Positions 12,745 through 15,502 of a DNA stretch of 64,000 nucleotides are shown here, in pieces. The notes beneath the pieces are model-generated. The model did no database searches. It had not been told where the DNA came from and saw only the letters and a program-made list of their open reading frames with translations. Origin of the DNA: Sphingobacteriales bacterium (lineage in GTDB: Bacteria; Bacteroidota; Bacteroidia; Chitinophagales; Chitinophagaceae). Every line of letters begins with the position of its first letter. The first letter of the stretch is position 1. The position numbers and the translations under genes were made by a program. The stretch lies in assembly GCA_004144185.1 (NCBI GenBank), contig SEFP01000002.1, positions 620,001 through 684,000 on the forward strand, in the 5' to 3' direction.

Positions 12745-12752
12745 TAATTTTG
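12745..12752 (+). promoter_or_regulatory. Candidate -7 box of the aminopeptidase gene
   Basis: TAATTTTG matches TAnnTTTG perfectly and ends three bases before the ATG at 12756. It would give an essentially leaderless transcript, divergent from the SDR box nine bases away. Confidence 0.35.
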
Positions 12753-12755
12753 GCG

Positions 12756-14189
12756 ATGGAATTTAAATTCAGTACCAAGGCATCCAGGAAAGATGCTATT
12801 TATATTATTGAAGACGCAAAAGATGCGGTGTACCCAACAGGCTTATCGGATGCAGAAGCCGAGTACGTACGCCGGCTGGTCAAGGAAGAGGTTAGCATCA
12901 TTCCGATCAATCACTACGATTCCACCCTGTTTATGGTTTCGCTGCCTGCATGCAACTCCCAGGAGCTGCTGGCCGAAACCCTGCGCAAAAAAGGAGCCGA
13001 TCTGTGTGGCCGTATCAATGCCCTGAAGCTTCCGGACGTTACGATTCACAATACCTCTTCTTTCGGAGCCGCCGCGATTCACCTGGCAGAAGGACTAGCC
13101 CTGAGCAACTACCAGTTTTTGAAGTACAAAACGGAGCCATCCAAAAAGGAAAACCGCCTCAAGACCATCGCCTTCGATAAAGGAAGCGCTACCAAACCCC
13201 AGCTTGCGGAACTGCAAACCGTGATCGATGCGGTTTATGCGGCCCGGACCCTGGTGAACGAGCCGCTCAATGCGATGACTGCAGTAGACCTGGCCAATGC
13301 ATTTGAGAAAATGGGCAAGGACAGCGGCTTTAAAGTAAAAGTGCTGCACAAGAAAGCCATCGAAAAGGAAGGCATGGGCGGTTTGCTGGCGGTTAATCTG
13401 GGCTCGCAGGATCCGCCTACATTTACCATTATGGAGCACAAGCCGGCCAAAGCACTCAACGCCAAGCCGATTGTACTGGTTGGAAAAGGTGTGGTCTACG
13501 ATACCGGTGGCCTCAGTCTGAAGCCGACCCCCAACAGCATGGACCGGATGAAAAGCGATATGAGCGGTGCGGCTTTGGTAGGTGCTACGATGCAGGCCAT
13601 TGCCCAGCTTAACCTGCCACTGCACGTGATTGCACTGGTACCGGCAACCGACAACCGTCCGGGTGAAAACGCGTATGTACCGGGTGATGTCATTACCATG
13701 TACAGCGGCGCCACCGTTGAAGTTTTGAATACCGATGCCGAAGGCCGTTTACTGCTGGGCGATGCGCTGCACTGGGCCAAACGCTACAATCCGGAACTGG
13801 TACTCGATTTTGCCACGCTGACCGGTGCCGCCAGTGTGGCCGTAGGCGAACACGGCATTGTCTGCATGGGCACTGCCGATGAGCGTGTAAAAACACAGTT
13901 GCGCGCAGCCGGCGAGCGGCAGTACGAGCGACTGGTGGAGTACCCGCTGTGGAGTGAGTATGGCGAGCAGATCAAAAGTGATATTGCTGATATCAAAAAC
14001 GTGGGCGGTCCCAGCGGCGGCGCGATTACAGCCGGTAAATTTCTGGAGCATTTCACCTCCTATCCGTGGATGCACTTCGATATTGCCGGGGTCAGCTTTG
14101 CGACGGCCAAGCGCAACTACCAGACCATTGGTGGAACGGCCTTTGGATTGCGGATGCTGCTGGATTTCCTTCAGTCGTACACCGCTTAA
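12756..14189 (+). CDS. pepA: M17 leucyl aminopeptidase
   Basis: Cytosolic dizinc aminopeptidase that removes N-terminal residues from peptides. The family signature NTDAEGRLLLGDAL lies at about residues 326-339. Metal- and substrate-binding segments VGKGVVYDTGGLSLKP (about 243-258) and MKSDMSGAA precede it. The length of 477 residues is normal for the two-domain M17 enzyme. The ATG at 12756 (Met-Glu-Phe-Lys) is preferred over an in-frame TTG at 12750. It is divergent from the SDR gene. The 3' flank, toward pdxA, has a cluster of TTCCGGAA palindromes. Confidence 0.96.
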   Translation: MEFKFSTKASRKDAIYIIEDAKDAVYPTGLSDAEAEYVRRLVKEEVSIIPINHYDSTLFMVSLPACNSQELLAETLRKKGADLCGRINALKLPDVTIHNTSSFGAAAIHLAEGLALSNYQFLKYKTEPSKKENRLKTIAFDKGSATKPQLAELQTVIDAVYAARTLVNEPLNAMTAVDLANAFEKMGKDSGFKVKVLHKKAIEKEGMGGLLAVNLGSQDPPTFTIMEHKPAKALNAKPIVLVGKGVVYDTGGLSLKPTPNSMDRMKSDMSGAALVGATMQAIAQLNLPLHVIALVPATDNRPGENAYVPGDVITMYSGATVEVLNTDAEGRLLLGDALHWAKRYNPELVLDFATLTGAASVAVGEHGIVCMGTADERVKTQLRAAGERQYERLVEYPLWSEYGEQIKSDIADIKNVGGPSGGAITAGKFLEHFTSYPWMHFDIAGVSFATAKRNYQTIGGTAFGLRMLLDFLQSYTA

Positions 14190-14213
14190 AGCCTTTACAC
14201 AGCAGCCCCTGGG

Positions 14214-14319
14214 TTCCGGAAGCTTTATTCCGGAAACGGTATCTTCCGGAACTCAACGGGATATAGTTTATCCGAACCGGATCCGGTGAACAGGTGCAGG
14301 TTTCCGGCGGGTTCCGGAA
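14214..14319. repeat. Cluster of four exact TTCCGGAA palindromes
   Basis: Exact TTCCGGAA copies start at 14214, 14228, 14244 and 14312 in the pepA-pdxA gap. This is the densest group I found of a palindrome that recurs through the window. Neighbouring copies could pair into alternative hairpins. No T-run follows, so this is not a standard terminator. Confidence 0.8.
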
Positions 14320-14336
14320 CGTGCCGGGTTGGTTGT

Positions 14337-14344
14337 TTATTTTG
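14337..14344 (+). promoter_or_regulatory. Candidate -7 box of pdxA
   Basis: TTATTTTG, one mismatch from TAnnTTTG, lies 18 bases before a TTG codon in the pdxA frame at 14363. That spacing matches several other promoter-start pairs in this window. Confidence 0.35.
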
Positions 14345-14362
14345 CGTTCAAAATCTTCTCTT

Positions 14363-15502
14363 TTGCAGTCTTCTTCTACCAGTGCCCCGGTTCCCGTTAG
14401 CGAGCACGCCTCCGTGCTGGAACCTTCGCAGGCCTTGCCTGTGATCGGATTTTCCTGTGGCGATCTTAACGGGATCGGAATCGAAACGATTCTGAAGCTG
14501 CTGGCCGATCCCCGGATTGCACACCAGTGCATTCCGGTGGTTTTTGCCTCCGAAAAAGCGATCGGCTTCTATGCCGCCAAACGGTTTACCGAAGAGAAGG
14601 TTCCGTTCCGGGTCATTCAGTCATTCGACAACCTGGAGAGCGGACACAATTACTTATTTACTGCCTGGAATGAAGAGGTCAGCATCCAGCCGGGTGTGCT
14701 TACGGACAGTTCCGGAAAGTATGCCGTACGATCGCTTCAGGTAGCGGCACAATGCCTTAAAGACGGGCAGCTGGATGGGTTGGTAACGGCTCCTATCAAT
14801 AAAGCCAATACCCAATCCGAACACTTTGCCTACACCGGCCACACACCGTTTTTGCAGGATTTTTTCGGTGCCAAGAGTGTCTTGATGGTGCTTCACGATG
14901 CCTCGTTGCGCGTGGCACTGGTTACCGAGCATCTGCCGGTGTCGGCGATCGCCGCACACATTACCACCGACCGGGTGCTGCAAAAACTCACGCTGTTCCG
15001 GAACACACTGGTGCAGGATTTTGGTATCGACAAGCCCCGCATTGCCGTGCTGGGACTCAATCCGCATGCCGGAGATGGCGGCGCTATCGGCAGCGAAGAA
15101 GACACTCTTATCAAACCGGCTATCGACCAGGCCCAGCAAAATGGCATACTGGCCTTCGGACCGTATGCGGCCGATGCGTTTTTTGCCCGTGGCAGCTATA
15201 CCGGTTTTCACGGGGTGCTGGCGATGTATCACGATCAGGGACTGATTCCGTTTAAAACACTGGCCCAATCCGGAGGGGTCAACTTTACGGCAGGCCTTTC
15301 CGTCATCCGGACGTCTCCCGACCACGGTACCGCGTTTGATATTGCCGGTCAGGGCATAGCAGATCCGACTTCTATGCGCGAAGCGTTGTTTGAATGCATC
15401 GACCGGATCCGGCAGCGGGCAATGTATACGGCCAATACCGCCAATCCCCTACCCCGCAGCCGGGTGCAGAAGGAACGCACGTTTGGCGGACACCGCGACT
15501 AA
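14363..15502 (+). CDS. pdxA: 4-hydroxythreonine-4-phosphate dehydrogenase
   Basis: NAD-dependent enzyme of pyridoxal 5'-phosphate synthesis (DXP-dependent route) that oxidises 4-phosphohydroxy-L-threonine. Hallmarks are GDLNGIGIETILKLL near the N-terminus, the HTPFLQDFF segment and the metal-binding C-terminal block YHDQGLIPFK followed by TSPDHGTAFDIAG. The start is uncertain. An upstream ATG at 14294 gives 23 extra residues unlike the family and would lie before the promoter-like box at 14337. The TTG at 14363 is therefore preferred, and a GTG at 14441 next to the conserved core is also possible. Confidence 0.9.
   Translation: MQSSSTSAPVPVSEHASVLEPSQALPVIGFSCGDLNGIGIETILKLLADPRIAHQCIPVVFASEKAIGFYAAKRFTEEKVPFRVIQSFDNLESGHNYLFTAWNEEVSIQPGVLTDSSGKYAVRSLQVAAQCLKDGQLDGLVTAPINKANTQSEHFAYTGHTPFLQDFFGAKSVLMVLHDASLRVALVTEHLPVSAIAAHITTDRVLQKLTLFRNTLVQDFGIDKPRIAVLGLNPHAGDGGAIGSEEDTLIKPAIDQAQQNGILAFGPYAADAFFARGSYTGFHGVLAMYHDQGLIPFKTLAQSGGVNFTAGLSVIRTSPDHGTAFDIAGQGIADPTSMREALFECIDRIRQRAMYTANTANPLPRSRVQKERTFGGHRD

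Follow-up and report, generated by a model that had tools for sequence, protein, structure and literature searches.

The pepA-pdxA locus

The window, that is, the whole 64,000-nt stretch of DNA analysed here, carries a pepA-like leucyl aminopeptidase gene (12750-14189, + strand) followed by pdxA (14363-15502, + strand), with an intergenic gap of 173 nt (14190-14362) between them. The upstream gene, whose stop lies at 14189 in the ORF list, was named from its open reading frame and its best NCBIfam matches, the top ones being leucyl aminopeptidase models that all score below their curated cut-offs; pdxA matches TIGR00557 of the same collection above cut-off. Gene calls were made with a custom script rather than a published caller, and place the likely start of pdxA at TTG 14363, an identical TTG being present in a sister species (G002). 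The best named relatives of pdxA are Bacteroidetes and Chitinophagaceae records (best 62% identity), and by this sequence comparison the host would belong to the Bacteroidota, near Chitinophagaceae.

All inside the gap, within 14214-14319 of the window, lie four exact copies of TTCCGGAA, a perfect 8-nt palindrome (14214-14221, 14228-14235, 14244-14251 and 14312-14319; no strand is assigned to the copies or to the gap). A preliminary description of the locus had placed copies at 14214, 14228, 14244 and 14312 between pepA and pdxA, positions that proved exact, and had called them the densest group; they are indeed the sole quadruple within 106 bp in a 604-kb sample of the source genome (G000). 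Two further copies fall within pdxA itself: according to alignment by eye, the one at 14710-14717 is kept in G002 at the corresponding place and the one at 14996-15003 is not.

The cluster had also been said to precede a predicted promoter. Bacteroidota promoters have a -7 element with the consensus TAnnTTTG, and a putative element of this kind lies at 14337-14344 (+ strand), reading TTATTTTG here and TACTTTTG in G002; it is Bacteroidota-like and matches the consensus imperfectly, which makes such an element before pdxA plausible. The fourth copy ends 17 nt before it, and four copies stand upstream of pdxA, as would be expected of an operator or promoter cluster controlling that gene. Against this, a sigma-70-type scan of the gap returned 0 promoters. 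The further claim that the cluster has no T-run holds insofar as no clear T-run is present, but two weak terminator-like matches with T-rich tails follow the third and fourth copies.

These matches, together with the predicted fold of the gap RNA (-64.2 kcal/mol, z -3.07, equalled by 0 of 200 shuffles), are what an RNA element or terminator built of paired copies would offer in its favour. Shuffled gaps, however, yield 0.9 +/- 0.8 terminator-like matches against the 2 observed, no Rfam family matches the gap at E 0.1, and T-runs are not clearly commoner after copies than after random positions, whether in G000 (20 of 167 copies and 80 of 835 positions in gaps of 40-400 nt) or in G002 (8 of 113 and 58 of 565, in gaps of the same size). 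The stem followed by a T-run that marks an intrinsic terminator is thus found neither at this locus nor as a property of the motif, only in isolated cases elsewhere, and this explanation is very improbable. The better-than-shuffle fold leaves a local structural role possible; palindromic copies, however, pair with one another by construction. One of the isolated cases is found on contig C11 of G000 (L105:1501-1545), where a hairpin made of two copies, 10 nt apart, leads into a T-run and, from its letters, appears terminator-like.

A highly iterated palindrome in two sister species

The palindrome is by no means confined to the gap. The window holds 82 copies where 1.31 are expected, and 0 of 100 dinucleotide shuffles reach this number, the largest count being 5. 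In the source genome, which comprises 3,316,718 bases and is 98.5% complete, the word occurs 4475 times (1.35/kb) and the reversed control word AAGGCCTT 83 times, and G002, a congener that is 87% complete, holds 3302 copies in about 2.7 Mb (1.22/kb). Two other congeners, G001 (83% complete) and G003, are poor in the word, with 162 and 209 copies, respectively. Relative to a second-order Markov model the word is over-represented 19.6-fold in 604 kb of G000, 20.6-fold in 459 kb of G002 and 2.0-fold in 331 kb of G003. Among the 797 genomes counted (G000-G796) the array occurs in two, G000 and G002, and the next densest among the genomes listed has 745 copies in about 3.7 Mb, or 0.2/kb (G422). Highly iterated palindromes (HIPs) are over-represented palindromic words that recur about once per kb throughout a genome, a description that TTCCGGAA fits; it constitutes a HIP-like array in Bacteroidota.

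HIP1 (GCGATCGC) of the cyanobacteria was reportedly first described by Robinson in 1995. As with HIP1 and the alternate HIPs of that phylum, an 8-bp palindrome extends over the whole genome with one dominant word, and the densities given above are similar to those of two cyanobacteria, where HIP1 reaches 0.86 and 1.42/kb (PMC3497702, consulted, like the other papers cited here, in excerpt). Further likenesses are that some close relatives carry the array and others do not, and that words one letter removed from the palindrome are skewed towards the outer letters in G000, though not in G002, where the skew falls on letter 2 (PMC4390886, excerpt). In contrast to HIP1, the word is a different one, the host belongs to another phylum rather than to the cyanobacteria, an extended flank is present in G002 only, the array is limited to 2 of 797 genomes, and the two HIP-rich species have no methyltransferase in common among four Pfam families; TTCCGGAA is thus not HIP1 itself. 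Chi sites are likewise short words found genome-wide, but the Chi of E. coli (GCTGGTGG) is not palindromic (PMC1939737, excerpt).

According to a statement marked as unpublished in the excerpted text of PMC3497702, octamers that reach the frequency of HIP1 are found in very few bacterial genomes. Among the matches listed for genomic HIPs in open-licence papers, only cyanobacterial cases were recognized in the text available, and among those listed for TTCCGGAA the titles and abstract openings gave no sign of genome-wide repetition. No open-licence paper was found that joins DNA uptake sequence, Bacteroidetes and overrepresented, or TCCGGA, methyltransferase and Bacteroid-. Such absence from the literature is not proof that the array is novel.

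Placement, spacing and chance grouping

The preliminary description had suggested that the gap might reveal the behaviour of the palindrome outside coding constraint, an expectation borne out in general terms. In the G000 sample the density of copies is 2.2 times higher in intergenic than in coding DNA (2.63 and 1.19/kb; 2.03 and 0.88/kb in G002), despite the lower G+C content of intergenic DNA (0.44-0.45), and it reaches 4.7-6.6/kb in gaps of 40-200 nt. The coding copies of G000 use all three reading frames (139/247/238). Density differs little with the orientation of the neighbouring genes, being 2.59, 2.32 and 2.95/kb in tandem, divergent and convergent gaps of G000 and 2.40, 1.80 and 2.34/kb in those of G002. 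This near equality implies that the motif does not serve generally as promoter or terminator. The preliminary description had proposed to relate groups of copies elsewhere in the genome to promoters; the motif has no tie to promoters.

Four copies share this gap because the motif is scattered through G000 and G002 about every 700-800 letters. In simulations that placed copies at random over the two C15 segments of G000 (564 of the 604 kb) while preserving the coding and intergenic rates, four-within-106-bp events arose 0.32 times on average against the 1 observed, and 268 of 1000 runs reached the observed number. Gaps of 120-200 nt hold 5.49 copies/kb over 69 gaps in G000, so that a gap the size of this one has a mean of approximately 0.9 copies and a probability of 0.014 of holding four or more; by this arithmetic approximately one such gap is expected in the G000 sample. 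Triples separated by 1-31 nt number 3 in the whole of G000, of which the cluster is one, and 13 in G002, compared with Poisson expectations of about 7.8 and 4.8, respectively. A tandem repeat search of the gap found none, and the flanks differ among the four copies. We conclude that the cluster is very probably an ordinary chance grouping without function as a cluster.

A local duplication or small mobile repeat would account for the length of the gap, which exceeds its G002 counterpart by 130 nt, but is hardly credible given the differing flanks and the lack of a tandem repeat. Moreover, the longest non-self BLAST match of the gap within 604 kb of G000 covers 35 nt at 83% identity (E 0.002), and the longest in 459 kb of G002 covers 47 nt at 74% (E 0.06).

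Spacing on a larger scale differs between the two species. Copies in G000 avoid close neighbours and are evenly spaced, with 69 neighbours closer than 100 bp compared to 102 +/- 9 in simulations and 446 at 200-1000 bp compared to 390 +/- 13. The cluster runs against this tendency of its own genome, yet falls within chance. G002 shows the opposite, with 75 neighbours closer than 100 bp compared to 55 +/- 6 simulated, and any saturation of the array is therefore not a feature that the two species share. Single-copy gaps are in excess (116 compared to 75.6 +/- 7.2 expected), a figure that cannot be used because it is confounded with gap length: the shortest gaps have 6.6 copies/kb, whereas gaps of at least 400 nt, which in part may contain uncalled genes, have 1.07/kb.

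Conservation in the sister species

The order pepA-pdxA is kept in G002; in the 4-kb loci that were read from G001 and G003, pepA was not seen to adjoin pdxA. The preliminary description had proposed a comparison of the gap in relatives, and had held that lack of conservation of the copies or their spacing in close relatives would count against it. In the alignment the syntenic gap of G002 is 43 nt long and contains 0 copies, which is the outcome named there. It also speaks against the operator or promoter cluster considered above. Such a cluster should show an excess upstream of genes and persist at its locus, and neither feature was found; divergent gaps are no denser in copies than convergent ones, and this explanation is most improbable. 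Along with the simulations and the missing link to promoters, the empty gap in G002 leaves the notion of the cluster as a marker of something specific to this locus without support. G002 has four copies of its own 3' of pdxA (L089 1386-1484), and in the same region (L089:1370-1500, contig C122) a long hairpin with a fold z of -6.02 carries a copy at its tip, a second isolated case of terminator-like appearance.

The turnover seen at this gap appears to be general for intergenic sites. In 29 orthologous gaps, taken between adjacent genes and reaching 30 nt or more in one or both species, a copy was present in both species in 4 cases, in one only in 10 and in neither in 15; the presence of copies in orthologous gaps is barely correlated. 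Coding sites were compared in 54 reciprocal-best gene pairs, chosen after removal of genes with internal stops and with at least 50% identity required over 60% or more of the G000 protein. The pairs align over 61,455 nt at 70.9% identity, and sites that face a gap or N in the other species were not counted. In these pairs 30 of the 74 coding copies of G000 (41%) are identical in G002, and 30 of 59 in the reverse direction, compared with 7.4-13.5%, depending on frame, for control 8-mers that likewise contain four G+C. No such rise in conservation is seen in the flanks of the coding copies. Where both species encode the same dipeptide, the palindrome codons are kept in 50-62% of cases, compared with 11-25% for other codons, in both classes on small numbers. 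By these alignments the array is for the most part common to both species and retained in genes, with intergenic sites turning over. Most simply, the shared coding sites would predate the split of the two species, and parallel gains at permissive places could lie partly behind them.

Related but non-identical motifs and the question of DNA uptake

Among words that differ from the palindrome by one letter, those of G000 with the outermost letter replaced, by any base, occur at 3.9-4.4 times expectation, other positions giving at most 1.84; in G002 the excess lies at letter 2 (2.1-3.1 times), letter 1 giving 1.0-1.7. The copies of G002 are preceded by T at -1 in 78% and by A or T at -2 in 75% of cases, compared to T at -1 in 32% for G000. 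Accordingly, G002 prefers a longer palindrome and G000 does not, and the two sister species bear related, non-identical motifs.

Uptake sequences have flank dialects, and a core with a species-specific flank, in addition to the density and intergenic excess of TTCCGGAA, is what would be seen if the word had become enriched as a DNA uptake sequence, through preference for transforming DNA that holds it. Known examples, the DUS of Neisseriaceae and the USS of Pasteurellaceae, are likewise short words with over a thousand copies that are commoner in non-coding DNA and occasionally form terminators from two copies (PMC1939737, PMC1852404, both in excerpt), a configuration matched by the C11 hairpin of G000. 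Nevertheless, uptake sequences as described in the available parts of these papers are non-palindromic words of about 9-11 nt, whereas TTCCGGAA is a palindrome, hence without orientation; the motif also has no general link to T-runs, as described above. A DNA uptake sequence is an unlikely explanation of the array.

DNA methyltransferases and the array

Cyanobacterial HIPs accompany methyltransferases able to modify them, and a methylation-linked model has been proposed for their origin (Elhai 2015, PMC4390886, excerpt). Applied here, a methyltransferase for TCCGGA or CCGG, together with biased mismatch repair, would ratchet the sequence towards the palindrome. The cause of HIP1 was still a model in 2015, according to the same excerpt. 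The word class, the density and the outer-letter pattern of one-off words in G000 are as in HIP1 (PMC4390886), and m5C methyltransferases of family PF00145 are present in both HIP-rich species (1 gene in G000, 3 in G002) and in neither of the HIP-poor ones, G001 being 83% complete. G002 is rich in methyltransferases generally, with four match rows for each of PF01555, PF02086 and PF02384 besides its three PF00145 genes, and several of its methyltransferase matches contain palindrome copies (L092, L095, L098, L181), so that these genes may be long resident.

Other observations weaken methylation as the driver. The m5C enzymes are not orthologous, the best G002 match of the G000 enzyme being 36% identical, and the four closest relatives of the G000 enzyme (45-51%) come from genomes without the array. 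In G000 this gene lies in a 9.2-kb stretch without copies (C1:1268073-1277292), mostly of G+C 0.33-0.44, and PF01555 and PF02086 have no match. The two PF02384 matches of G000 are a Type ISP enzyme, located in 20 kb of sequence that lacks the palindrome altogether, and an MmeI-like gene in a region with 3 copies in about 11 kb (C1:37.6-48.5 kb), one of them inside the gene. The three methyltransferase genes of G000 that the four Pfam families detect are thus all found in palindrome-free or palindrome-poor stretches, and these families yielded no methyltransferase common to G000 and G002. Moreover, the one-off words of G000 that deamination of a methylated C would produce occur at 0.99 and 1.84 times expectation. 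The copies inside the MmeI-like gene and the G002 methyltransferase genes indicate that these are not all recent arrivals, which raises the standing of the methylation-linked model and lowers that of a methyltransferase-independent reading and of the reader mechanism outlined below. On balance, methylation as the origin of the array is doubtful.

As individual candidates, the Pfam families fare as follows. PF00145 separates the HIP-rich from the HIP-poor species (2 of 2 and 0 of 2), but was rejected as the cause on the grounds of its non-orthologous enzymes and the palindrome-free surroundings of the G000 gene, and its sorting in four genomes is weak evidence. PF01555, present in three of the four congeners but not in G000, and PF02086, present in G002 and G003, do not sort with the array.

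Both copy-free stretches of G000 look acquired. One includes the AT-rich, palindrome-free region around the m5C gene (L184:6594-13094; about 1268.6-1275.1 kb of contig C1), where the neighbours of the methyltransferase are a 995-aa HEF_HK/HATPase protein, a 552-aa Response_reg_2 protein and a 251-aa protein without a Pfam match. PADLOC recognizes only the methyltransferase among these four proteins, and the region looks like an acquired defence operon. The other, positions 22001-42000 of contig C30 (L274; 20 kb, 0 copies, G+C 0.45), carries the Type ISP restriction-modification gene and looks mobile or acquired. The MmeI-like gene (L250:337-3275; about 42.7-45.7 kb of C1) occupies two overlapping frames of 386 and 593 aa, and its palindrome copy falls within the 386-aa piece.

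A possible trans-acting reader of the palindrome

Taken together, the best overall explanation, to which we assign a probability of roughly 0.7, is that the cluster is a chance grouping within a HIP, and that the array is driven by a reader acting in trans. Its copies are ordinary members of the array, which gains and retains copies at a density of about one per 0.7-0.8 kb where the sequence can change, and the pepA-pdxA locus needs no function of its own. The mechanistic part, taken as a whole, is more tentative, with odds somewhat short of even. A reader would recognize the CCGG-centred palindrome, probably as a dimer. Each site would act as a landmark, whether in repair, recombination, uptake or chromosome layout, all of which fit as roles of the reader. 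The benefit in G000 would seem to level off when one site is present within about a kilobase, extra neighbours not being favoured, and the reader is probably not among the DNA methyltransferases detected in that genome. A more far-reaching proposition, possible but rather unlikely, is that TTCCGGAA is a methyltransferase-independent HIP that arose within one Bacteroidota genus, with flank dialects already differing between two sister species; it would then reveal a dimeric reader that rewrites the genome towards its own site, saturating in one species at one per about 0.7 kb.

The cluster itself is unimportant; it is the array that matters. In this genus two species are rich in the HIP and two are poor, and few methyltransferases occur in one of the rich pair; this amounts to a natural experiment that can separate explanations based on methylation, uptake and a binding protein.

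Dense groups of the palindrome also occur in viral DNA, where scanning of contigs for three close copies gave 48 stretches. Flanks were viewed in the 10 densest and are repeated in L125, L142, L143, L147, L156 and L163, the others being left unclassed, and most of the contigs are represented by pieces; for the remaining 38 density alone was computed. One viral contig (IMGVR_UViG_3300044959_000237) has 51 copies in 12 kb, of which 48 are packed into a 2.8-kb segment (L143:9185-11962) that is considered a repeat region because the copy spacings are often multiples of 24. Another stretch (L157), a 3.1-kb piece of the 158-kb IMGVR_UViG_3300014208_000003, holds 10 copies at irregular spacing. Finally, in the 459-kb sample of G002, GATC is scarce (1.33/kb in coding DNA, compared to 5.32 in G000) and GTAACGGT is over-represented 6.4 times (60 counts on both strands).
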